Shown: positions 32,466-43,632 of the stretch, in pieces | Numbering within the stretch: position 1 is the first letter of the stretch | How the letters are laid out: each line of letters opens with the position of its first letter | Made by a program: the position numbers and the translations under genes | The notes under the pieces: generated by a model | Databases searched by the model: none | What the model saw: only the letters and a program-made list of their open reading frames with translations | What the model was told of the DNA's origin: nothing | Source: Cytophagales bacterium | GTDB lineage: Bacteria > Bacteroidota > Bacteroidia > Cytophagales > Cyclobacteriaceae | Direction of reading: 5' to 3' | Length of the DNA: 64,000 nt | Assembly: GCA_017303795.1 (NCBI GenBank) | Contig: JAFLBR010000001.1 | Location: forward strand, 124,001 to 188,000

Positions 32466-33200
32466 ATGAGACTATCTGTAAAATATACTTTGATGTGCAT
32501 AGTGGCCCTTCTATTTCAGATCAACGCAACTGCACGGCAAAAGAAGAATGACTTCGTGTCAATCTTTGATGGTAAAACCTTAAACGGGTGGGAATGTGAT
32601 ACCGCGTATTGGCGAGTAGAGAATGGAATTCTGATTGGTGAGATAATACCAGCTAAACCTTTGAAGTCAAACACATTTGCCATTTGGCGTGCGGGCGAGC
32701 CTAAAAATTTTGAATTAAAGTTTCAGTATAAAATCAGTAAGGACGGCAATAGTGGGATCAATTATAGAAGTGAAAAAGTTACTGGTGTGCCATATGCCTT
32801 AAAAGGGTATCAGGCTGATATCGATGGCATGAATCGTTATACCGGCCAGAATTATGAAGAGCGGGGGAGAACTACGCTCGCCTATCGCGGCCAGACGACA
32901 AAAGTAAATGCTGCAACCGGAACGGAGTCTATAAAGAACAACGCGTGGGTAAGTTCTGTGGTAGTTAAATCGCAAAGCAGAGATTCGTTGCAACAGTTTA
33001 TTAAAACAGACGACTGGAACGAGGTGCACCTGATTGTTAAAGACAACCGACTACAACATTATGTAAATGGTGTACTGATGAGTGATGTTACCGATAACGA
33101 CACCATGAATCAAAAATTAAAAGGTTGGCTTGGAATGCAAGTGCATGTGGGGCCACCGATGAAGGTGGAGTTTAAAGATATTTGGTTGAAAGCATTATAA
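32466..33200 (+). CDS. Exported DUF1080 protein (3-keto-disaccharide hydrolase family)
   Basis: A 244-residue protein with signal peptide LMCIVALLFQINATA and one concanavalin-like domain of the DUF1080 family: VSIFDGKTLNGWECD, FELKFQYKISKDGNSGINYRSE, GYQADIDG and DWNEVHLIVKDNRLQHYVNG. Family members bind or hydrolyse glycosides oxidised at C3. It is separated from the dehydrogenase gene only by a short inverted repeat, so the two are likely coexpressed. A second, diverged DUF1080 gene lies on the opposite strand at 33273. Confidence 0.88.
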   Translation: MRLSVKYTLMCIVALLFQINATARQKKNDFVSIFDGKTLNGWECDTAYWRVENGILIGEIIPAKPLKSNTFAIWRAGEPKNFELKFQYKISKDGNSGINYRSEKVTGVPYALKGYQADIDGMNRYTGQNYEERGRTTLAYRGQTTKVNAATGTESIKNNAWVSSVVVKSQSRDSLQQFIKTDDWNEVHLIVKDNRLQHYVNGVLMSDVTDNDTMNQKLKGWLGMQVHVGPPMKVEFKDIWLKAL

Positions 33201-33272
33201 AATTAGTACCTCGTTGAGTCACCATTAATATGTTCTTAACCAATCACAATCGTCACGCTTGTGATTGATTAC

Positions 33273-33950
33273 TCACAACTTTCTAATCCCAATATTTCTA
33301 TACCGATGTTTTGCACTCGGTATCCATGAGCTTAATGGCATTCCACCGCTGGCTTCAGGTGCATATACGGCTGTCCAATGGCATTGTAAGGCAATCATAC
33401 CTGTAACAGCACCGGCTATAAAATCATTTTTGGTTTGTTGTACGCTATACATTTCAACCTCGTTAATCCATAAGGTAACTTTTGGAATCTCGCCCGTCAT
33501 GCGAATGCGAAACGAGTTCCAGTCGCCAGCTTTCCAAACCGAATCGCGTTTAAGGGCTTTGCCGGGAACACTTACCGGAGTACGCTCACCTAACAAATAA
33601 CCGGTGTTGCCGGGCAGTACTAATTCTATCTGATAAGCCGCACCACCTTCATTCGATCGCAGGAAAATTCCACCATTCGCAAACGAATCAATTTTAATTT
33701 CCATGTACAATTCAAAATCGCCAAAGCTTTGATCGGTTAATAAAATTCCTCCTTGCCCAAACGGCTGCTGACTCGCTACAATAGCACCATCTTCCACAAA
33801 AAAATTGGGCGTGGTACCCTGATGTGTTGTACGACTAACATGCCAACCTTTTAAATTTTTTCCATTAAAGAGTGGCTTAAATCCTTTTGGAATCTGCGCC
33901 AGACTTAGTGAGCTGATTAGGCTGAATGCTATGAGCGAGAGGAGTTTCAT
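33273..33950 (-). CDS. Exported DUF1080 protein, second copy
   Basis: A 225-residue relative of the gene at 32466, convergent with it, with signal peptide LLSLIAFSLISSLSLA. Key segments are FKPLFNGKNLKGWHV, GGILLTDQSFGDFELYMEIK, DSFANGGIFLRSNEGG and DWNSFRIRMTG. The ending PLSSWIPSAKHRYRNIGIRKL is typical of the shorter subgroup. Sequence divergence between the two copies is large, so this is probably not a recent duplication but two specificities. It lies downstream of the SUMF1-like gene across a heptamer repeat. Confidence 0.86.
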   Translation of the reverse strand: MKLLSLIAFSLISSLSLAQIPKGFKPLFNGKNLKGWHVSRTTHQGTTPNFFVEDGAIVASQQPFGQGGILLTDQSFGDFELYMEIKIDSFANGGIFLRSNEGGAAYQIELVLPGNTGYLLGERTPVSVPGKALKRDSVWKAGDWNSFRIRMTGEIPKVTLWINEVEMYSVQQTKNDFIAGAVTGMIALQCHWTAVYAPEASGGMPLSSWIPSAKHRYRNIGIRKL

Positions 33951-33953
33951 TAT

Positions 33954-34064
33954 TGTTTCTGGTTGCTAGTCTCTGGTTTCTGTTGCTTTGAATAACTTAT
34001 TAAAACATTTACTGAATACTACTTACCGATCACCGCTTACTACTCACTGATTACCATTTACCGA
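33954..34064. repeat. Heptamer-periodic repeat, locus 1
   Basis: Degenerate 7-bp units run through the intergenic gap: first CTGGTTT-like units, then a core GAATAACTTATTAAAAC (33990-34006), then TACTGAT/TACCGAT units. The last units run into the 3' end of the SUMF1-like gene and encode its final residues. The same order occurs at 40453-40579 and 40986-41130. Confidence 0.75.
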
Positions 34065-34904
34065 TTCACTTATCACTACCACAAGTCTAAAACCCGTATC
34101 ATATCCACTTCCCGGACCACCGGCATGCGTCATGTACGTTGCATTTTTTACATCGCCATAAAAGCAGGAGCCTTTTAGTACGTGTTGTTTTGCTTTCTTA
34201 GGTGGAGTAGGATCGGCAAAGATTTTTTCATTGTAATAATCGTCAACCCATTCCCACACATTGCCCAGCATATCGTACAAACCCCAGGCATTTGGTTTTT
34301 TCTGTCCAACGGCTTGTGGCGTTAGTTTGGCAAGGTGTGCACTTTCGTTTATTTCGTTCCAGGCAATGTCTTCTTTATTACCGGCACGGGCCGCATATTC
34401 CCATTCAAATTCGGTAGGTAAACGATATGTAGCTTTACCTTTCTCGAGTTGATTTAATTTTTTAATAAAGCGTTGCGCATCATTCCAACTCACGCGTTCA
34501 ACAGGAAAGTTATCGGTGTTGCCTGTTATGTTGTTTCCTTGAAAGTAAGCAGGATTACTGCCCATTACCTTTTTCCATTGGGCTTGTGTTACCTCAAACT
34601 TACCCATATAAAATGCTCTGGCGATTGTTACTTCAAAACCTGAACTTGCATCGCGCAACGCAAGTTGTTTGGCGACTTCGTAATCGCTGGCTTTAAGTTT
34701 GGGTAAACCCATATCATCGTCAGCGCTTTTGCGGTATTGTTCCAGAAAGCCAAACTGCGAAGTAGTAGGTTGAAGTTTTCCTACGGTAAAACTTCCGGCC
34801 GGCACTTCAATAAATTCTATGCCTATGGTGTTGGTATACGTTTTTAACGGTTGTACATAACCGGTAAGGCTTACCGAGAGAAGAAGCAAAATAATCCTAT
34901 ACAT
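34044..34904 (-). CDS. Exported SUMF1/formylglycine-generating-enzyme-like protein
   Basis: A 286-residue protein with a signal peptide (IILLLLSVSLTGYVQ) and a C-type-lectin-like SUMF1 domain: FIEVPAGSFTVG, AFYMGKFEVTQAQWKKVMG, PVERVSWNDAQRFIKKLNQ, YRLPTEFEWEYAARAG and GLYDMLGNVWEWVDDYY. True sulfatase-activating enzymes carry two cysteines near the end; here only one (KGSCFYGD) is visible in that region, and no sulfatase gene is near, so sulfatase maturation is doubtful. The last residues (SESVNGNQ) are encoded by a heptamer repeat. It ends up four bases after the serine hydrolase gene. Confidence 0.85.
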   Translation of the reverse strand: MYRIILLLLSVSLTGYVQPLKTYTNTIGIEFIEVPAGSFTVGKLQPTTSQFGFLEQYRKSADDDMGLPKLKASDYEVAKQLALRDASSGFEVTIARAFYMGKFEVTQAQWKKVMGSNPAYFQGNNITGNTDNFPVERVSWNDAQRFIKKLNQLEKGKATYRLPTEFEWEYAARAGNKEDIAWNEINESAHLAKLTPQAVGQKKPNAWGLYDMLGNVWEWVDDYYNEKIFADPTPPKKAKQHVLKGSCFYGDVKNATYMTHAGGPGSGYDTGFRLVVVISESVNGNQ

Positions 34905-34907
34905 GGA

Positions 34908-36176
34908 TTAATCGTTTAGTGCCTGATAGACTAACGTATTGAACGTTTCTCCAATTTCGCTATCGTGCGCGCCCCACATTTGCCGGTACATTAACACCAC
35001 CATCTTTTCTTTTGGATCTACCCAATAGGTTGTAGAGAATGCACCGCCCCATGAATAGGATCCTTCTGAAAGTGGTTGCATTGCGGAGCCTTTTTCCGTT
35101 TGAACTTCAAATCCTAGACCGAATTTATTATCACCAAAAGGAAGATCATTAATCTGATTCATTGTCATCATGCGTACTGTGTTACGCGATAGCAGACGCG
35201 CACCATTATATTCGCCACCATTCAATAACATTTGTAAAAAAATGGCATAGTCATAAATAGTAGAAGATAATCCGCCACCACCCGAGAAATAACTTTTTAT
35301 GCGAGTAGGGTAGTCTATGCTGGTACCTAAACCACCAGAAGCTTTTTCAAGTTGTCCGTCTTTGTTAACGGTAAAGAAGTTAACTACTCGTGCAGCTTTA
35401 TCTTCAGGCACGTTAAAATAAGTATCGTTCATGCCCAAGGGTTTAAAAATATGATCTGCAAAAAATGCATCTAATGTTTTGCCCGACCACACTTCAACCA
35501 ATCGCCCTAATACATCGGTGTTTAGCCCGTATGTCCAGCGCTCACCAGGGTTATGCATAAGCGGTAACACACCTAATCGGTTTATGGCATCCTCCAGTGT
35601 ATCGTCATAAACATCAAGACCTGCTGTGATTTTAGTTTTAGCATAAATGGAAATGGCTTCAGGGCTACCGATTTGTGCGTACCCGATACCGGAAGTGTGT
35701 GTAAGCAAATCGCGGATAGTTACTTGCCGCTTTGCAGGTACGGTAGTGTAGCTGCTGTCTTTTGGATTAAATTTATCCAATACAGTAGCATTGGCAAATG
35801 CTGGAATGTATTTTGAAACGGGTTCGTCCAACAAAAATTTTCCCTCTTCCCATAACATCATGGCCGCTACGCTGGTAACGGCTTTTGTCTGCGAAGCAAT
35901 TCTAAAAATGTCGGTGTTTTCGAATGTGTCTTTGGTTTCTGGATTTTTGTAACCGGTTGCTTTGAGATAAACGATTTTACCATCGCGGGCGATAAAAGCT
36001 ATGGCACCATTCATCCAGCCGGCATTAACCCATTTGGTAAATGTAGAGTCAATCCGCGCAAGCCGGGCTGTTGAAAACCCAGCGGCTTCTGGTTGAGCTG
36101 GTGATAAGATTTTTTTAGTTTCTACCGGTTGCTGGCAGGCCAGGCATACCAATAACAATATCCCGATGTGTTTCAT
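34908..36176 (-). CDS. Exported serine hydrolase of the class C beta-lactamase family
   Basis: A 422-residue lipoprotein (signal LLLVCLAC). It has the SxxK motif SQTKAV near residues 92-95, the Tyr-x-Asn motif YGLNTDVLG, and a late GSYSWGGAFSTTYWVD where HTG-like motif sits in relatives. Members are esterases, peptidases or beta-lactamases; nothing here proves antibiotic hydrolysis. A TATCTTTA box lies about 30 bases upstream of the ATG. The SUMF1-like gene starts three bases after its stop, so the two form an operon, probably with the DUF1080 gene. Confidence 0.87.
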   Translation of the reverse strand: MKHIGILLLVCLACQQPVETKKILSPAQPEAAGFSTARLARIDSTFTKWVNAGWMNGAIAFIARDGKIVYLKATGYKNPETKDTFENTDIFRIASQTKAVTSVAAMMLWEEGKFLLDEPVSKYIPAFANATVLDKFNPKDSSYTTVPAKRQVTIRDLLTHTSGIGYAQIGSPEAISIYAKTKITAGLDVYDDTLEDAINRLGVLPLMHNPGERWTYGLNTDVLGRLVEVWSGKTLDAFFADHIFKPLGMNDTYFNVPEDKAARVVNFFTVNKDGQLEKASGGLGTSIDYPTRIKSYFSGGGGLSSTIYDYAIFLQMLLNGGEYNGARLLSRNTVRMMTMNQINDLPFGDNKFGLGFEVQTEKGSAMQPLSEGSYSWGGAFSTTYWVDPKEKMVVLMYRQMWGAHDSEIGETFNTLVYQALND

Positions 36177-36294
36177 GGTGATTTGTTTTGTTGTGTGTGG
36201 TTTAAAGATAGAAAAGGTAAGTGGCTATTCTTAAAAGTATATGACTTTTTACGTAGGCCTACGTTACCGGATTAAATTTGAAAGTGAGCGGAGT

Positions 36295-36702
36295 TTATTT
36301 TTGCCGTGCAAGTTTGTCTTGTAATCGCCAGAAGGCATCGCCATAGTGTACCAGAATTTCTTCGCCCGCTAAAATATTGCGCGTGGCTTCAATAAAACAT
36401 TTGCGGCCCGCCTGCACATAAGCTGAATTGTTACGCAGACCTTTTACACGCACCAGACCGCGGGCATCGTTGGCATAGCGGCCATACGTATTAAGCGCAG
36501 GTCGGGCATCGATTACTGTTCTGGTACTTAGAAACATCAGGTAGCCGTTGTAACCATCTTCGTGTTTCACCTCTTTCCAGGAGCAAATGCGGCCTTTGTA
36601 TTCAACAATGTACTCGCCTTTTTTTATAGGGCGTGTAGTAAACAAACCTTTGCCTGCACCGGGCAAGCGCGATTTCTTTACACGCAGGTAACGGGTATTC
36701 AA
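36295..36702 (-). CDS. Small SET-domain protein (putative protein lysine methyltransferase)
   Basis: A 135-residue protein that is almost only a SET domain: GAGKGLFTTRPIKKGEYIVEYKG at the start, YGRYANDARGL where eukaryotic enzymes have the RFINHS motif, and AGEEILVHYGDAFW in place of the catalytic EELTYDY segment. The tyrosine is present. It overlaps the preceding PiT gene by four bases (ATGA), a tight translational coupling that is unusual for a SET protein. Substrate unknown; histone-like proteins or ribosomal proteins are possible. Confidence 0.85.
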   Translation of the reverse strand: MNTRYLRVKKSRLPGAGKGLFTTRPIKKGEYIVEYKGRICSWKEVKHEDGYNGYLMFLSTRTVIDARPALNTYGRYANDARGLVRVKGLRNNSAYVQAGRKCFIEATRNILAGEEILVHYGDAFWRLQDKLARQK

Positions 36703-38909
36703 TTATATGTTGAATAAACTTTCTGTAAAGACAACACGGCATCGGCAAGGTCGCGTAGTTCCAACAACAAACGGGTTTGCAGCAAACCCATACGATTTCC
36801 GATGTCATCGTTTTGAATGTCCACAACCAGTTCGTCTATTTTTTTGGTGATGAAATGCTGCAACTGCAGTGCTTCATCAAATGCAGGTTGTTGTTGTTTG
36901 GATATAGAATCTATACCTGACTGGATGAAATGACTTAACCTTTTCTCTAATGATGCAGTCAACTCAGCGTATTTTTTCTTGGGTGGTGAATGATGGTTTA
37001 CCACGTGATTCATAATCACATCGTTTATCAGACTTGTGCTTTGATACATGTCCTGCATCAGATCAAATACCTGAATATACAACCGCCCGGCAGCCTGATT
37101 GCCTTTGTCCATCTTGCGCACATACTTGATAATGCGTGAGTCTAATTTTTCATTTTGTTGCCGGAGTTTTTCAAGTTGTGTATGCGCTTTGCGCAACGGA
37201 TCGGTGGTTTCGCTGAGTAAGGCTTGCAAACTTTTTTCTGTTACCGAACGAATTGTCTCCAGCGCACTTACCGTATTCTTGCGACTCTCTTCAATAGCCT
37301 GTTGTGCACTTACTTGTTTTTGTTCCAGCAAGGGGGCATCGGCCTTGGCTTCTTTTTCTTTTTTACTAAATACTAAATGACTACGGATAAGCAAGAATGC
37401 TGCCGCTACGGTTAACGCAATAAAGCCTGCATTACCGGTATAATACATTATGAAGGCAAGCAGACCGCTTGCCAATAAAGCCACCACGGCTGTAACCAGC
37501 CAACCGGCAATTACATTAATAACACCGGCTACACGATACACTGCGCTTTCGCGACCCCATGCCTGATCGGCAAAGGAAGAACCCATCGCTACCATAAATG
37601 TAACAAAGGTTGTACTAAGCGGAAGTTTTTGCGAGGTACCATAAGCAATCAGTACGCTGGCCACCACTAAGTTTATGCTGGCGCGAATTAAATCGAATGA
37701 GGCTTGATCTGCCGCTACATCGCCTGATGTATCTTTTGCAAACTGAATAGAAATTTTTCTTGACCAGCGCTCGGGTATTACTTGTTCGGCCAATCGGCCA
37801 ATCCACATGGCGCTACCCACCAGCACCCGCGATACAACATTAGGTTTAAATTTTTCATCGCCCTCATCTTGCCGCCCAAGTGAAACTTCGGTTTCCGTTA
37901 CCTTTCTACTTTTCGAGTTTGTCCAGAGTGTAATCACCATTACCAATCCGCCCAAAAATAAAATCCAGGTGGGCGTTACAATCTTTTCATTCAGAATGCC
38001 AAGTGTAAACTCAGAAGCGGGAACGTTGGAGGCAGCCCACGATTGAAATGAAACCAATCCGGCAACGGCCACGCCAATAAAGTTTACCAGGTCGTTTCCG
38101 GCAAAAGCCATCGCCAGCGAAAATGTTCCTAACAGCACAACACCTTTAAGGGGATTGATTTTTTTCCACCACATTAAAATCTGAATGAGGATAGACCATA
38201 CCACAACCGAAATCAACACAATGGGTAAGGTATTGGCTGTAATCCATTTTATCTGGGCATCGGAAACAAACGAACTTCCTTTGGCACCTTTAATCAATAG
38301 AAAATAGATGATTGAGGTAATAGCAATACCACTGAATATGGCACCGTATCTGCGCAGTGATTTTTTTAATTTGAATGAGAATATTATCCGCGCAAGATGT
38401 TGCACAATAGAACCCACAATAAATGAGAGGAACACCGAAAGAAAAATCCCAACTATAATCGTTATTGCGCTGGAGTAGTTGATGATCTCCGACCATTTTT
38501 CAAAACCGAAACCATTATCAAATGAAATAAGTAATCCGGTAACCAGTGCTGCGCCCAATAACTCAAACACAAGCGATACAGTGGTGGAAGTTGGGAGGCC
38601 AAGCGAGTTGAAAAAATCCAGCAGAATAATATCGGTAAGCATCACAGCCATAAACACGATCATGATCTTATCGAACGAAAAATAACTAGGGTTAAAAATT
38701 CCGTTGCGGGCAATCTCCATCATACCGCTGGAAAACATGGAGCCGCAAATAATACCAACGCTGGCTACCAATAAAATTATTTTGAACGATGCTACCCTTG
38801 AGCCAATGGCTGAGTTAAGAAAATTTACGGCATCGTTACTAACGCCAACAATCAGATCGACCACGGCAATCGCCATCAGGATTACGGTCAGGATAAGATA
38901 AAAGTCCAT
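36699..38909 (-). CDS. PiT-family inorganic phosphate transporter with PhoU-like cytoplasmic tail
   Basis: A 736-residue membrane protein. The two PiT signature regions are GVSNDAVNFLNSAIGSRVA near the N-terminus and GNDLVNFIGVAVAG in the middle, with about eleven membrane spans to residue 500. Residues 520-736 are a charged helical domain (SVTEKSLQALLSETTDP, IGNRMGLLQTRLLLELRDLA) resembling PhoU or DUF47 regulators, which in many bacteria are separate genes beside PiT. The ATG at 38909 replaces a TTG six bases upstream. A TAACTTTA box (38935-38928) may drive it. Confidence 0.88.
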   Translation of the reverse strand: MDFYLILTVILMAIAVVDLIVGVSNDAVNFLNSAIGSRVASFKIILLVASVGIICGSMFSSGMMEIARNGIFNPSYFSFDKIMIVFMAVMLTDIILLDFFNSLGLPTSTTVSLVFELLGAALVTGLLISFDNGFGFEKWSEIINYSSAITIIVGIFLSVFLSFIVGSIVQHLARIIFSFKLKKSLRRYGAIFSGIAITSIIYFLLIKGAKGSSFVSDAQIKWITANTLPIVLISVVVWSILIQILMWWKKINPLKGVVLLGTFSLAMAFAGNDLVNFIGVAVAGLVSFQSWAASNVPASEFTLGILNEKIVTPTWILFLGGLVMVITLWTNSKSRKVTETEVSLGRQDEGDEKFKPNVVSRVLVGSAMWIGRLAEQVIPERWSRKISIQFAKDTSGDVAADQASFDLIRASINLVVASVLIAYGTSQKLPLSTTFVTFMVAMGSSFADQAWGRESAVYRVAGVINVIAGWLVTAVVALLASGLLAFIMYYTGNAGFIALTVAAAFLLIRSHLVFSKKEKEAKADAPLLEQKQVSAQQAIEESRKNTVSALETIRSVTEKSLQALLSETTDPLRKAHTQLEKLRQQNEKLDSRIIKYVRKMDKGNQAAGRLYIQVFDLMQDMYQSTSLINDVIMNHVVNHHSPPKKKYAELTASLEKRLSHFIQSGIDSISKQQQPAFDEALQLQHFITKKIDELVVDIQNDDIGNRMGLLQTRLLLELRDLADAVLSLQKVYSTYN

Positions 38910-38998
38910 AAACAATAAAATGCGGGGTAAAGTTAGCGAAATGCCGCTTTCAGATTTTAGAAACTGTTACCTTTAAACCGTAAGTTTTACCACTTAAA

Positions 38999-39391
38999 AT
39001 GAAGGACTTTAAGAAATATTTTATTATTACCGCCCGGCCCGATCAGGTGTATTTGGCGCTTACTACCGAGGCTACCATTCAGTTATGGTCGGGCGATAAG
39101 GTTGAAATGAAACCTGAGGCGGGTACCGAGTTTTCGTTGTGGGATGGCAGCATTGTGGGTAAAAATCTGGAGTTTGAAAAGGACAAAAAGATTGTACAGC
39201 AATGGTATTTTGGCGAACAAACTGAGCCTTCTATTGTAACCCTTAAATTACATGAGCATGGGCAAGGCACTTCCGTGGAAGTACGGCACACCAACATTCC
39301 CGATGAAGATTATGATGACATTGCCGAGGGTTGGATACACAGCTACATGGCCTCGTTGCAGGAGTTTTATGAGGGCGAACCGGAGGAATAG
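38999..39391 (+). CDS. SRPBCC/AHSA1-like protein
   Basis: A 130-residue protein with the START/Bet v 1-like fold: YFIITARPDQVYLALTTEATIQLWSGD, EPSIVTLKLHEHGQGTSVEVRHTNIPD and a closing amphipathic helix GWIHSYMASLQEFYEGE. This family binds hydrophobic ligands or co-chaperones Hsp90. A TACCTTTA box lies at 38968-38975. Start is the ATG at 38999. It ends at a long hairpin shared with the convergent MaoC gene. Confidence 0.85.
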   Translation: MKDFKKYFIITARPDQVYLALTTEATIQLWSGDKVEMKPEAGTEFSLWDGSIVGKNLEFEKDKKIVQQWYFGEQTEPSIVTLKLHEHGQGTSVEVRHTNIPDEDYDDIAEGWIHSYMASLQEFYEGEPEE

Positions 39392-39450
39392 TTAGTTACC
39401 AGTTACCTGTTTCCTGTTACTGGCAACTTGTAACAGGAAACAGGGAACTA
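39391..39450. terminator. Perfect 15-bp stem between convergent genes, made of heptamers
   Basis: CCTGTTTCCTGTTAC (39406-39420) is perfectly complementary to GTAACAGGAAACAGG (39430-39444) with a 9-base loop. The whole stretch parses into 7-base units (CCAGTTA, CCTGTTT, CCTGTTA, CTGGCAA, CTTGTAA, CAGGAAA, CAGGGAA), linking it to the heptamer repeats nearby. Position suggests a two-way terminator. Confidence 0.75.
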
Positions 39451-39963
39451 ATTAAAGTGATACAAAAACACCAGCAACCCATTAAATGCTGGTTTGGGAT
39501 TGTCTTTTATCTCTAAAGTAACTTCTACTTCAAACTTGGTAATGCCACGCAGGTTAGCGATGGAATGCAGCTTGGCCCGGAGTCGTACTTCGCTGTTAAC
39601 CGTTACGGCCTGATTGAATTTGAACTTTTCAATGCCGTAGTTGATCATCATTTTAATATTTCTGAACTCAGCAATCTGATCCCACAAATGGGGTACTAAC
39701 GAAAGCGTTAAATAGCCGTGAGCAATAGTCCCTTTAAATTGAGTTTCGGCTTCGGCCCGTTTAGGGTCGGTATGTATCCATTGGTGATCTAATGTGGCAT
39801 CGGCAAACAGGTTAATCTGAGCCTGCGTTATTTTCAGGTATTCTGATACGCCCAATTCTTTTCCTTTGTAGGTTTCAAATTCTGCGTGACTGCTAATGAG
39901 GAGCGGCATTGATTTAGTAGGTTTGTGGGTTCGCGAATTTAAAGATTCGGTAACATTATTCAT
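39448..39963 (-). CDS. MaoC-like hot-dog-fold dehydratase
   Basis: A protein of up to 171 residues with a hot-dog fold, resembling (R)-specific enoyl-CoA hydratases: ITQAQINLFADATLDHQWIHTDP holds the Asp and His of the hydratase motif, followed by FKGTIAHGYLTLSL. The first 18 residues (to MPLLISSH) are not family-like, so the real start may be the ATG at 39909. It converts trans-2-enoyl-CoA to 3-hydroxyacyl-CoA or performs the reverse. It is divergent from, and three bases apart from, the YdeI-like gene. Confidence 0.85.
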   Translation of the reverse strand: MNNVTESLNSRTHKPTKSMPLLISSHAEFETYKGKELGVSEYLKITQAQINLFADATLDHQWIHTDPKRAEAETQFKGTIAHGYLTLSLVPHLWDQIAEFRNIKMMINYGIEKFKFNQAVTVNSEVRLRAKLHSIANLRGITKFEVEVTLEIKDNPKPAFNGLLVFLYHFN

Positions 39964-39966
39964 ATC

Positions 39967-40449
39967 ATGTTAAAAAAACAACGCTTTTCTTTTGAAACCC
40001 GCCTTATAGAGTATGAAGATACACTGGTTAACACCGTGGTAGAACTTCCTGCCGATATAATTAAAAAATTACCCACCGGTAGGGTGCGGGTAGAGGGCAA
40101 GTTGAATACAGTACCTTTTAACCTTGGGGTTCAATTCAAGAAGAGCGGAGCGCGATACCTGAGCATTAGTCAGGCCATGCGCAAGGCGGCTAAAATAAAA
40201 CCGGGTGATAAAGTAAAAGTGAGTTTTGAAATTGTTGATCCGGATAAATTAGAATTGCCTGAAGAAATGGAGGCTGTGCTGGCCCAAGATGAAGCTGGCG
40301 CAAAGCTGTGGAATAAACTTACAGTTGGATTACAGCGCAGCTTAGTCCATTATATAAACAGCACCAAAAATGTTGACTTACGTATTGAACGTGCGCTCTT
40401 CCTTTTGAATAAGGTTAAGTCGGGTGCGTATAAGGATAGAATGAAGTGA
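39967..40449 (+). CDS. YdeI/OmpD-associated and DUF1905 domain protein
   Basis: A 160-residue protein: residues 5-95 form the DUF1905 beta barrel (FSFETRLIEYEDTLVNTVVELP, GRVRVEGKLN, KPGDKVKVSFEI) and residues 100-155 the YdeI/OmpD-associated helical part (WNKLTVGLQRSLVHYINSTKN, RIERALFLLNKVKSG). Function is unknown; relatives have been linked to envelope peptide resistance. The ATG is three bases from the divergent MaoC gene start, so their promoters must overlap the two coding regions. Confidence 0.8.
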   Translation: MLKKQRFSFETRLIEYEDTLVNTVVELPADIIKKLPTGRVRVEGKLNTVPFNLGVQFKKSGARYLSISQAMRKAAKIKPGDKVKVSFEIVDPDKLELPEEMEAVLAQDEAGAKLWNKLTVGLQRSLVHYINSTKNVDLRIERALFLLNKVKSGAYKDRMK

Positions 40450-40452
40450 TGG

Positions 40453-40579
40453 GCTTGCTGGTTACTTGCTTCTGGTCTCTGGTCACAAGTCACTAGTCAC
40501 TGGTTTATTCAGACCAACTTACTCAAACTGATCACCGAATACCGATTACTGATTACCGATTACCTAACCTCCCAGTACC
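40453..40579. repeat. Heptamer-periodic repeat, locus 2
   Basis: The gap holds a run of CTGGTNN units (CTGGTTA, CTGGTCT, CTGGTCA, CTAGTCA, CTGGTTT), then the core GACCAACTTACTCAAAC (40512-40528), then GATCACC, GATTACT and GATTACC units up to the start of the next gene. All parts keep a 7-base step. Confidence 0.8.
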
Positions 40580-40581
40580 CT

Positions 40582-40977
40582 ATGCCCGTCATCGACATCC
40601 CTACAAAGCCCAAAGTTGAAACCGATGTTCTAACCGCTATTGATTCATGGACGTTGGAAGATCAACATGTGTATGTACATTGTTATTATAAAAACGAGTT
40701 AGACGAAATGTTAATCCGCGTATGGCGATCTACTTTTTTGATTGATAAAGTAAGCGGAGCGCATAGCGAATTAGTTCATGCCGAAAATATTTCTTACGCT
40801 CCGCAATGGACAATCATTCCCGGTAAAAAAGTATTTTCATTTCTGCTTATTTTTTCAGCCTTGCCTAAAGATTGTAAAGTGTTCGATCTGGTAGAGGATA
40901 TTCCCCAGGCCGGTGGTTTCTATGTTTCAGGTATCAAACGCAATGAGTTGGATGTGTATCATGTGGATATTCTTTAG
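40582..40977 (+). CDS. Hypothetical protein between two heptamer repeats
   Basis: A 131-residue protein with no signal peptide or long hydrophobic stretch. It starts MPVIDIPTKPKVETDV and looks beta-rich (HVYVHCYYKNELDEMLIRVWRSTFLI, FYVSGIKRNELDVYHVDIL), perhaps one compact sandwich domain. No family is recognised. It is bracketed on both sides by copies of the 7-bp repeat, which leaves little room for an ordinary promoter. Confidence 0.7.
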   Translation: MPVIDIPTKPKVETDVLTAIDSWTLEDQHVYVHCYYKNELDEMLIRVWRSTFLIDKVSGAHSELVHAENISYAPQWTIIPGKKVFSFLLIFSALPKDCKVFDLVEDIPQAGGFYVSGIKRNELDVYHVDIL

Positions 40978-40985
40978 GTGCTCGC

Positions 40986-41130
40986 GCTGGTTTCTGGTCA
41001 CTAGTTGCTGGTTTCTGGTTGTTCTGACTAACTTACTAAAACGGTATACTGATTTACTGATCACCGATTACTGATTACCACTTACTGAATACCAATCACC
41101 GATTACTACTTACTGATTACTGAATACTAT
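40986..41130. repeat. Heptamer-periodic repeat, locus 3
   Basis: This is the longest copy: CTGGTTT, CTGGTCA, CTAGTTG, CTGGTTT, CTGGTTG, then the core GACTAACTTACTAAAAC (41026-41042), then about ten GATTACY-like heptamers. It fills the space up to ten bases before the hrpB start codon. Confidence 0.8.
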
Positions 41131-41139
41131 CTTGCACCC

Positions 41140-43632
41140 ATGCAATACCCCGTCCTCGAGATTGTTCCGAAACTCAAAGAGCAATTCAACGCGCAGAAGA
41201 TTTTAATTCTGCAAGCACTACCCGGTGCGGGTAAGAGTACCGTATTGCCGTTGCAGATTTTAGAAGAACTCTGGCTTCAGCAAAAGAAAATTATTATGCT
41301 CGAACCCAGACGACTGGCAGCACGCTCGGTTGCCATGCGCATGGCGCAATTACTTGATGAAGAAGTAGGAGAGACCGGGGGCTATCGCGTTCGCTTCGAA
41401 AATAAAGTGAGTGCAAAAACACGCATCGAAGTTGTAACCGAAGGCATTCTTACACGCATGATTCAAACTGACAGCACATTAGAAGATGTGGGGTTGGTGA
41501 TCTTCGATGAATTTCACGAACGCAGTCTGCAAGCCGATCTGGCATTGGCTTTATGTTTACAAGTACAAACGTTGCTGCGCGATGATTTGCGTTTGCTCAT
41601 CATGTCGGCCACATTAGATGGAGAAAAGATTTCAGGTGTGCTAAACAACGCACCTATTCTTACCAGTCTTGGGCGCCAGTATCCCATCACACACCAATAC
41701 ATCAATCCCGATAAGGATTTACGCCTTACACAAAATGTGGCGCGCGTAATCCGCAAAGTATTAAAAGAACAACAAGGCGATATGTTGGTGTTTCTGCCTG
41801 GCGCGGGCGAGATACAACACGTTCAACAATTGCTGGAAGCTGAAAATATTTCGGGTGTGGTTCCGCTCTTTGGCGATTTACCTTTTAAGAAACAGCAGGA
41901 AGCGATACTACCGCATCCACAAGGACTACGAAAAATTGTATTGGCAACTTCACTTGCCGAAACATCGCTTACTATTGAAGGCATCACCACAGTAATTGAT
42001 TGTGGCTATGCGCGTGTGCCACGGTTCGATCCGCGCAGTGGCTTAACGCGATTGGAAACAGTACGCGTTACGCGCGATGCAGCCGATCAACGTGCAGGTC
42101 GTGCCGCGCGATTAGGTCCCGGTGTTTGTTATCGGCTGTGGCCGGAAGCAACACATCATACCTTGCAACCCAATCGCCAACCGGAAATACTGGAAGCTGA
42201 TCTTGCTTCACTTATGTTGGAGTTAGCCAACTGGGGTGTTTATGATTTGAATGAACTTACGTGGATTACACCGCCACCACCGGGTGCAATCAGTCAGGCG
42301 CGCGAGTTGTTGCACAACCTCGAAGCGCTGGAAGAAAATAAGATCACAACCAAAGGCAAAGCGATGTTGAAGCTGCCCACACATCCGCGCATTGCACACA
42401 TGTTACTTTCCCCCCTCTCCCTCGGGAGAGGGGCAGGGGGTGAGGGACTGGCCACCGATCTCGCATCTCTTCTCGAAGAGCGCGATCCATTACCAAAAGA
42501 AACTGGTGCTGATTTAAGTTTACGTATTGAAGTGTTGCGCAAGTGGCGTGCAGGTGAGCGTGTAAATGCTGACCGGAATGTATTGGAACGCATTGAACGC
42601 ATCGCAGCCAATTGGCGTAGAATTTTTAAGTTGAATGTAGATAACACCATTCCATCTGATAGTGAGGTGGGCCGATTGATTGCGGAAGCCTATCCCGAAC
42701 GCATTGCACAACAACAAGAGAAGAAAAGCGAGCGCTATAAACTAGCCAATGGTCGCGTAGTGAAATTACCCCAACACGATGCGCTGGTGCGCGAACGCTG
42801 GCTGGCCGTTGCGCACTTAGATGCGGGCAGCACAGAAGGTAAAATTTTTCTGGCCGCACCGTTAGATGAAACCGATTTACAACACCGTGCAATAGAAACT
42901 GAAACGGTTAAGTGGGATGCAACCCGTGGTATGGTAGTAGCAACTCTCGAAAAGAAAATTGGCAACACGGTGTTATCTGCAAAGCCGTTAACACAAATAC
43001 CCGAAGCTAAACGCATACTTGTTTTAGTAAACGCTTTGCGCGATGAAGGAATAAAATTATTGGGTTGGGATGAAGCCCATACCGAATGGCAAAACCGGGT
43101 GTTGAGCATTCGCGCCTGGCGACCGGATGAAGGCTGGCCTGATGTAACAACAGAAAATTTAATAGCCACAGCCGATAGTTGGTTGACACCTTACTTAAAC
43201 ACCATTACCAAACGCAGTGAGTTACAAAAGCTCGACATGCTAAACATACTCACCGGTTTGTTTCCGTGGGAGTTGCAGCCCAGGTTAGATAAACTGGCAC
43301 CGGTGCGCATGGGTGTGCCCAGCGGCTCACACATTAAACTCAATTATTTTGCTGATGGTCGTGCGCCCGTAATGGAGGTACGCTTGCAGGAAATGTTTGG
43401 GTTGTTGGAAACACCGGTTATCAATGAAGGGCGTACAAAAATTTTGTTGCACCTGCTCTCGCCTGGTTATAAACCTGTGCAGGTTACACAAGACTTAAAA
43501 AGTTTTTGGCAAACTACATACCACGAAGTGCGCAAAGAGTTACGCATGCGCTACCCACGCCACCATTGGCCCGAAGACCCGTGGACAGCAGAGGCGGTAA
43601 GGGGAGTGAAGAAGAGGACACCTCATCCCTAA
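41140..43632 (+). CDS. hrpB: ATP-dependent helicase HrpB
   Basis: An 830-residue DExH RNA helicase. Walker A is LPGAGKST (residues 27-34), motif II is IFDEFHERS near 120, motif III is MSATL, and motif VI is DAADQRAGRAARLGPG. The HrpB-specific C-terminal domain follows, with LNYFADGRAPVMEVRLQEMFG and TAEAVRGVKKR. Two foreign features stand out: residues 424-436 (SPLSLGRGAGGEG) are encoded by a palindromic repeat inserted in frame, and the last residues and stop codon (TPHP) come from a second copy. Cellular role of HrpB is poorly defined. Confidence 0.95.
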   Translation: MQYPVLEIVPKLKEQFNAQKILILQALPGAGKSTVLPLQILEELWLQQKKIIMLEPRRLAARSVAMRMAQLLDEEVGETGGYRVRFENKVSAKTRIEVVTEGILTRMIQTDSTLEDVGLVIFDEFHERSLQADLALALCLQVQTLLRDDLRLLIMSATLDGEKISGVLNNAPILTSLGRQYPITHQYINPDKDLRLTQNVARVIRKVLKEQQGDMLVFLPGAGEIQHVQQLLEAENISGVVPLFGDLPFKKQQEAILPHPQGLRKIVLATSLAETSLTIEGITTVIDCGYARVPRFDPRSGLTRLETVRVTRDAADQRAGRAARLGPGVCYRLWPEATHHTLQPNRQPEILEADLASLMLELANWGVYDLNELTWITPPPPGAISQARELLHNLEALEENKITTKGKAMLKLPTHPRIAHMLLSPLSLGRGAGGEGLATDLASLLEERDPLPKETGADLSLRIEVLRKWRAGERVNADRNVLERIERIAANWRRIFKLNVDNTIPSDSEVGRLIAEAYPERIAQQQEKKSERYKLANGRVVKLPQHDALVRERWLAVAHLDAGSTEGKIFLAAPLDETDLQHRAIETETVKWDATRGMVVATLEKKIGNTVLSAKPLTQIPEAKRILVLVNALRDEGIKLLGWDEAHTEWQNRVLSIRAWRPDEGWPDVTTENLIATADSWLTPYLNTITKRSELQKLDMLNILTGLFPWELQPRLDKLAPVRMGVPSGSHIKLNYFADGRAPVMEVRLQEMFGLLETPVINEGRTKILLHLLSPGYKPVQVTQDLKSFWQTTYHEVRKELRMRYPRHHWPEDPWTAEAVRGVKKRTPHP
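42409..42447. repeat. GC-rich palindrome inserted in frame in hrpB
   Basis: CCCCTCTCCCTCGGGAGAGGGG is an inverted repeat followed by CAGGGGGTGAGGG, the same order as at 43685-43719 read in the other frame. The segment is 39 bases, a multiple of three, so hrpB stays open. Confidence 0.85.

Follow-up and report, generated by a model that had tools for sequence, protein, structure and literature searches.

The window analysed here is a 64,000-nucleotide stretch (64 kb; positions 124,001 to 188,000 of contig JAFLBR010000001.1) of the Cytophagales bacterium assembly GCA_017303795.1, a genome of 4.87 Mb designated G000, and our subject is a set of four arrays of drifted seven-base units (heptamers) in the gaps between its genes. 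Site 1 is located between the 3-keto-disaccharide hydrolase gene and the end of the FGE-sulfatase gene and runs into the latter, site 2 lies in the gap between the DUF1905/OmdA gene and a gene for a 131-aa protein, site 3 in the gap between the 131-aa gene and the HrpB helicase gene, and site 4 in the gap between the AHSA1 and MaoC genes. The features are the following:

33959..33989, plus strand: left arm of site 1, drifted CTGGTNN heptamers (from the sequence and its lag-7 identity)
33990..34006, plus strand: spacer ("core") of site 1
34010..34064, plus strand: right arm of site 1, ACYRNNN (GATTACY) heptamers, holding the stop and last codons of the minus-strand FGE-sulfatase gene
34044..34904, minus strand: flanking FGE-sulfatase / SUMF1-like gene (Pfam PF03781)
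39391..39450, no strand assigned: site 4, heptamers with a 15-bp perfect stem and a 9-nt loop between two convergent genes (folding z −5.8)
39406-39420 and 39430-39444: stem halves of site 4
40458..40507, plus strand: left arm of site 2, CTGGTNN heptamers directly past the TGA of the DUF1905/OmdA gene
40512..40528, plus strand: spacer ("core") of site 2
40526..40565, plus strand: right arm of site 2, ACYRNNN heptamers that overlap the end of the spacer and stop about 16 bp 5' of the 131-aa gene
40582..40977, plus strand: flanking 131-aa gene, with no Pfam family, the basis of the comparison of orthologous gaps
40975..41021, plus strand: left arm of site 3, CTGGTNN heptamers starting on the TAG stop codon
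41026..41042, plus strand: spacer ("core") of site 3
41048..41128, plus strand: right arm of site 3, about 11 ACYRNNN heptamers reaching the HrpB start region
41140..43632, plus strand: flanking HrpB-type helicase gene (Pfam PF08482)

The first-pass annotation of this DNA had proposed a strict 7-bp periodicity at the four sites and an autocorrelation at lag 7 as its check. The lag-7 self-identity was 0.48 (33954-34064), 0.66 (39391-39450), 0.53 (40453-40579) and 0.53 (40986-41130), compared with 0.26 for the whole window; the signal was echoed at lags 14 and 21, and the four sites were the top four lag-7 places of the 64 kb when these were scored in 70-bp scanning windows. The layout claimed for three loci, CTGGTNN heptamers followed by a core and by GATTACY heptamers, was found with its cores at the spacer positions listed above, and the perfect 15-bp hairpin at the fourth site was found as well. 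The stop codon of the FGE-sulfatase gene (34044-34046) falls within the site 1 array, which encodes the end of this gene, as had been noticed. The arms of the window (CTGGTNN, CYGATTA) are also readable as a single direct ladder with a G-to-A change, the phase being kept at two of the three sites.

The heptamers are not peculiar to the window locus; they occur throughout the genome, across the genus and in other phyla. In a 602-kb sample of G000, 69 segments were found at lag 7 at the lowest threshold, compared with 3 to 12 at the other lags, multiples of 7 and lag 15 (22) aside; the stretches of this sample were mostly picked for pattern hits (28 of 49, a choice neutral to orientation), and one masked run of N counts at every lag. 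In 464 kb that were not picked for hits, the window included, there were 14 segments at lag 7 and 0 to 7 at non-multiples of 7. Four consecutive ACYRNNN units (ACYRNNN x4) were matched 212 times (154 + 58) in G000, compared with 31 times (14 + 17) for the reversed pattern. Several unit families co-occur in this genome (CTGGTNN/ACCAGNN, GATTACY, TTAGTCC/ACTAAGG, ACYGGNA and GATTTNN), some of them joined within one array. When genes were called simply as the longest open reading frames, array clusters were intergenic in 55 of 59 cases in G000, in 9 of 9 in its relative G008 and in 29 of 52 in G020, a genome of another family of the same order. One row of the 56-row list of G000 arrays is a masked run of N.

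The core AACTTAYTMAAAC, which had been taken as the defining element and was expected elsewhere in the genome with heptamers on both sides, gave a largely negative result. It has eight exact copies in G000, and heptamers adjoin just three of them, all inside the window. With up to two mismatches, the core exceeded its reversed control in one of eight genomes (G009, 20 versus 18), and in G000 the control was the commoner (11 versus 24). The core was therefore rejected as a genome-wide element; it is a local spacer, and the heptamers are what is general. A clustered regularly interspaced short palindromic repeat (CRISPR) array was rejected as well, the 7-bp units having no spacers between them. 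The window arrays share with prokaryotic long simple sequence repeats an exact 7-bp tandem step, a mainly intergenic location and length differences between relatives in whole units. Because their units are drifted (lag-7 identity 0.48-0.66) rather than near-identical, we filed them as a variant of heptanucleotide intergenic simple-sequence repeats.

We then compared the genomes of the genus. The ACYRNNN x4 pattern had from 0 to 212 hits per genome, with at least one in 55 of 62 genomes (G000 included); it was higher than its reversed control in 50 genomes, equal in 3 and lower in 9, and it reached at least three times the control with at least 10 hits in 33, although the reversed pattern may itself pick up other heptamer families. 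Independently of any motif, the samples of G000, G008 and G020 contained more segments of period 7 than of any other period tested, its multiples aside, and G016 gave just one weak segment. The densest heptamers among the sampled genomes were seen in G020, with 52 clusters in 240 kb and many CAGTCGG/GCCGACT units.

Orthologs of the 131-aa protein were present in 55 of the 62 genomes; 30 of these loci were obtained, and a detailed comparison covered 13. In the gap ahead of HrpB, the arm families and the spacer were common to G000, G008 and G009, the spacer being well kept while the arms change. Similar arms without the spacer were present in G013 and G060, and the gap starts with similar units at the stop codon in G018, G030 and G051, after which other families (AATCACT-like) fill much of it. 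By eye, there was an array in G043 and none in G042, G044, G061 and G071. In the gap preceding the 131-aa gene, G051 and G009 have in common a stretch of another family embedded in the ladder. Alignment of the orthologous gaps of G000, G008 and G009 showed 7- and 21-bp insertions and deletions (indels) alongside point changes; some indels were of other sizes. The arrays thus vary in steps of whole 7-bp units as well as by point mutation, and one gap carries different unit families across species; of the mechanism proposed in the first-pass annotation, the 7-bp step, the drift of the units and the gain and loss of whole units were borne out. Differences between units showed no excess of transitions (0.40, compared with 0.52 between orthologs), and wobble-tolerant copying was rejected on this basis. 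Spacers resembling the core reappeared in some close relatives, in their orthologous gaps, and once elsewhere, in a different gap of the relative ACE_BAC22 (L264).

Two side observations concern the window itself. A conserved TATCTTGC/TATCTTTGC element stands before the HrpB start, at 41128-41139 and in the same gap of relatives, directly 3' of the array ends; it resembles the TAnnTTTG promoter box of Bacteroidota. A tandem repeat with a period of 284 bp (2.1 copies, 78% matches) occupies positions 1151-1745.

A search of a collection of 84,980 genomes with the composite pattern CTGGTNNCTGGT-N25..55-GATTACYGATTACY (CTGGTNN...GATTACY) returned 51 matching stretches, while about 0.2 were expected from a calculation for equal base use, made with no shuffled control. 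According to the record titles, these stretches come from about 35 assemblies, and they belong to Bacteroidota, Chlorobiota, Chloroflexi, Planctomycetota, Deltaproteobacteria, Gammaproteobacteria, Gracilibacteria, Vallitaleaceae, Cyanobacteria (Hyella, Gloeocapsopsis and Spirulina) and others; the cultured bacteria Fulvivirga imtechensis and Snuella sedimenti are among the carriers. The match in Endozoicomonas appears to be due to chance rather than to an array, and several of the other composites are one direct ladder in which CTGGTTA alternates with CTGATTA.

Three consecutive GATTACY units were found in 48 stretches of IMG/VR. One group of overlapping, near-identical contigs, with a guanine plus cytosine (GC) content of 0.57-0.64, is a tailed phage, as indicated by portal, terminase and tape-measure matches. 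In five loci of this uncultured tailed phage group, most gaps between genes consist of CAGTAAT-type left arms, a spacer and ACTGATT-type right arms, and a contig related at about 74-84% DNA identity has similar arrays in most gaps. Two-arm arrays with a AAAGGCAAAAAC-like spacer were seen in many gaps of the phage loci L298, L302, L308, L313, L315 and L335 and of related IMG/VR loci (about 60% GC). About 6-22% of the loci in the uncultured group consists of arrays, and locus L315 had no megablast match among the 50,697 phage records of INPHARED. Such phages, with their gaps densely filled by ladders, are a small system in which the process that makes the arrays could be measured.

The orientation of the arms was then scored for the ACYRNNN and NNNYRGT families in six data sets. 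Of 266 arms, 219 have a G/T-rich strand that runs inward from the edge of the gap and 47 one that runs outward; in other words, RGT-type arms mostly sit close to the left gap edge and ACY-type arms close to the right one, regardless of gene direction. The ratio of inward to outward arms was 59:7 in G000, 8:1 in G008, 20:4 in other loci of the genus, 112:25 in phage contigs, 14:6 in GTDB flanks and 6:4 in G020; in G000 it was 40:6 at stop edges and 19:1 at start edges. Arms nearly equidistant from both edges (a difference of less than 8 bp), arms that can be read in either direction and gaps of less than 40 bp were excluded from these counts, and in G000 without these exclusions 49 arms were inward and 9 outward. 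The arms of one gap and those of related phage contigs are not independent, and p values are indicative only.

The G+T content of array gaps in G000 was 0.583 at stop edges and 0.582 at start edges, compared with 0.498 and 0.525 in array-free gaps, and background base composition was rejected as the cause of the polarity given the small matching bias in these array-free gaps. The order of the arms was RGT then ACY in 107 cases and the reverse in none when just exact copies were removed, although the GTDB loci had been fetched by that order; when near-copies were removed as well, the two orders occurred 69 and 4 times within gaps, all four exceptions being in phage contigs. A TAGT/ACTA pattern in 296 genomes of the phylum showed the first order in 29 genomes and the reverse in 10 (16 to 0 in G000), where G198, G207, G285 and G336 are counted in both and units such as ACTAGTN in G207, G285 and G232 match either order. 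For orientation relative to the replication strand, the GC skew of 20-kb stretches was confounded with gene strand. The inward polarity looks like a DNA-level rather than a transcript-level rule because it is the same in both gene directions. It is also found in units without GGG, and quadruplexes therefore cannot be its general cause; its presence across differing units that are incapable of forming quadruplexes argues against explanations based on a single sequence. Any model for the making of the units can be tested against this rule.

Comparison of the lag-7 identity on the two sides of gene ends showed that in G000 the ladder starts sharply at the stop codon, which is often its first rung. 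At 56 G000 genes at array edges, the identity was 0.19-0.35 over the last 42 coding bases (0.35 in the last heptad), 0.49 in the heptad of the stop codon and 0.68 in the next one, compared with 0.25-0.31 at 823 other G000 genes. TAG stops were enriched at the array edges of G000 (24 of 56 versus 168 of 823, p 0.0003), and the phase of the ladder puts GT directly after TA (TAGT) in 15 of 38 cases (p 0.0001). An equally sharp start at the stop codon was seen in phage contigs. Such a start fits either a ladder begun at the stop codon or a spread into the gene halted by selection.

The arms could be RNA hairpins at transcript ends, with a role in termination or mRNA stability and with their pairing kept by selection. 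Site 4 folds far better than its shuffles (z −5.8), several further G000 arrays are long inverted repeats, and arrays lie mostly in co-directional and convergent gaps, all of which agree with such a role. However, sites 1 to 3 fold no better than shuffles (z 0.98, 0.45 and 0.29), G-T and A-C pairs are equally frequent in the aligned arms of the 26 better inverted repeats that G000 has between co-directional genes (21 versus 21 in ++ gaps, 25 versus 23 on the plus strand in −− gaps), so that G-U pairs are not preferred on the side of the transcript, and the interval 33000-42000 has no Rfam match at gathering score. The arms of one element also pair with each other no better than with foreign arms (16 G000 elements, p 0.09; 44 phage-contig elements, p 0.75), a result on which template switching between arms was rejected too, and we regard RNA hairpins as an unlikely explanation. 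The first-pass annotation had also offered a protein that reads every seven bases. A DNA-binding protein that recognizes GT (or AC) at this step, with the two arms as a dyad of binding sites between genes, would agree with a skeleton that is fixed while the intervening positions are free, with the polarity to gap edges in both gene directions, with arrays in phages and many phyla, and with an arm offset that is slightly uneven (one of seven values accounts for 6 of 16 cases in G000 and 18 of 59 in phage contigs). The offsets nevertheless cover all seven values in G000 and in phages, the spacing not being fixed; G061, which has zero pattern hits genome-wide, has the same gene pair without an array; and no candidate was found in a search limited to the SbcD, Y1 transposase and RVT_1 families, no general search for DNA-binding proteins having been made. 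A protein of this kind seems slightly less likely still than RNA hairpins.

Telomere-like end extension, in which units would be added at breaks to 3' ends pointing into the gap and the ends then joined, with the spacer as the joint, agrees with the strand of the G/T unit in the 219 inward arms, whose 3' end points into the gap, and with the mutual independence of the two arms of an element. On the other side, homogeneity shows no clear gradient along the arms (inner minus outer 0.042, s.e. 0.023, in 28 G000 arms; 0.009, s.e. 0.011, in 132 phage arms), which also told against growth at their inner ends; the spacer before HrpB is well kept among G000, G008 and G009 while the arms vary; and there is no RVT_1 reverse transcriptase match in G000. 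We consider this extension improbable, ranking it just below the binding protein. RVT_1 matches are present in 21 of the 62 genus genomes; the one-contig genome G037 has 13, eight of them with an identical score, probably the product of a recent burst of a reverse-transcriptase element. Mobile palindromes of the REP/REPIN kind, which bear a GTAG or CGTC tag at one end and are moved by a Y1 transposase, are very improbable: the arrays are intergenic and partly palindromic, and Y1_Tnp matches occur in 53 of 62 genus genomes, with five copies in G000, but the numbers of arrays and of Y1 matches are uncorrelated (Spearman 0.20, p 0.12, 62 genomes), G018 and G007, with 56 and 47 pattern hits, are without a Y1_Tnp match, and G002 and G036, with four Y1_Tnp matches, are without a pattern hit. 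A causal role for the loss of SbcCD, a hairpin nuclease, was rejected because array-free genomes are also without SbcD, a weak argument in that 6 of 14 control genomes miss the cut-off too. SbcD passes the cut-off in one of the 62 genus genomes (8 have any match), irrespective of arrays. The one genome that passes, G041, has the second highest array count (165).

The explanation that we favour, and that we hold to be somewhat probable, is that the sites are degenerate heptanucleotide tandem arrays made by slippage, kept where genes allow, and part of a genome-wide population. New units would arise through 7-nt slipped-strand events during DNA synthesis and would then drift through point mutation; selection on genes would retain the arrays just where no gene suffers, that is, in gaps, and at most sites they would have no sequence-specific job. 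The arrays are real and widespread and of a known but unexplained kind, and a special element at the window locus is not supported.

Several results weigh against slippage and tolerance as a full account. Plain slippage predicts no inverted arms with a preferred polarity, and the skeleton's recurrence in phages and across many phyla calls for selection or a shared cause. Arrays are scarce in divergent gaps (3 of 54 arrays, compared with 110 of 484 gaps of at least 40 bp), a scarcity equally consistent with some function at the ends of genes. One G000 array and its flanks are nearly unchanged in G008, which shows that not every array turns over fast. The polarity is not significant by itself in G020 or in the GTDB flanks. 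TAG is not enriched in phage contigs (p 0.52), where the TAGT phase occurs in 11 of 51 cases and another phase in 14, nor in G020 (p 0.57), and it is the stop in 1 of 8 cases in G008; the stop-codon register and the TAG enrichment are seen only in G000.

A broader reading, possible but doubtful, is that one DNA-level process, working inward from gene edges, makes heptamer ladders across bacteria and phages of many phyla by adding 7-nt units rich in G and T to whichever strand has its 3' end directed into the gap. The TAACTGA and GGGAATC repeats, the trnL heptads and the drifted ladders would all be its outcomes, and the stop codon would often be the first rung.

The closest known systems are themselves heptameric. 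Heptamers are the commonest prokaryotic long simple sequence repeats, and slippage has been tied by hypothesis to the length of DNA that contacts the polymerase (Mrazek 2007, as cited in PMC4679880 and PMC4692102). The arrays described here share the period of 7, and their drifted ladders would probably have been missed by a survey of long regular repeats such as that one. In Nostoc, the P6b stem of the trnL intron contains heptanucleotide repeats, the TDNGATT and NNTGAGT heptads (Kaasalainen 2015, PMC4476775); in the parts of that paper drawn on here, they resemble our arrays in whole-unit indels and in the replacement of one family by another in place, whereas they form a paired stem in a group I intron and our arrays are mostly intergenic, with unpaired arms at three of the four sites.

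TAACTGA direct repeats are known from Beggiatoaceae, Cyanobacteria and five Bacteroidetes (MacGregor 2015, PMC4679880). As that paper describes them in the passages used here, they are 7-bp units and mostly intergenic, their indels between two strains are mostly in 7-nt increments, related heptamers are mixed in, some sets overlap stop codons, and TAACTGA read in phase is ACTGATA, an ACYRNNN unit. Their orientation, mostly toward start codons, is the inward rule seen here. They are near-exact in sequence and mostly of one arm, whereas our arrays consist of drifted families, often with two arms, and treat stop and start edges alike; the units of G000 are CTGGTNN, GATTACY, TTAGTCC and others rather than TAACTGA.

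The GGGAATC / GGGGAYT heptameric repeats of Xanthomonas and Nostoc (Rehm 2015, PMC4692102) have quadruplex-forming G-tracts. In the account of Xanthomonas given in that source, GGGAATC lies on the coding strand directly past stops and on the non-coding strand directly ahead of starts, and it occurs in convergent pairs. The window arrays are without repeated GGG, and quadruplexes therefore cannot explain the polarity that they have in common with GGGAATC. In a literature search mainly of open-licence papers, with few subscription ones, no paper stating inward polarity as a general rule was found; it is new as a generalisation and already reported for GGGAATC in Xanthomonas. From what is described in the portions of PMC4692102 and PMC4679880 considered here, the inward polarity can be read in both; taken with the drifted ladders described here, it is independent of quadruplexes and of any one sequence.

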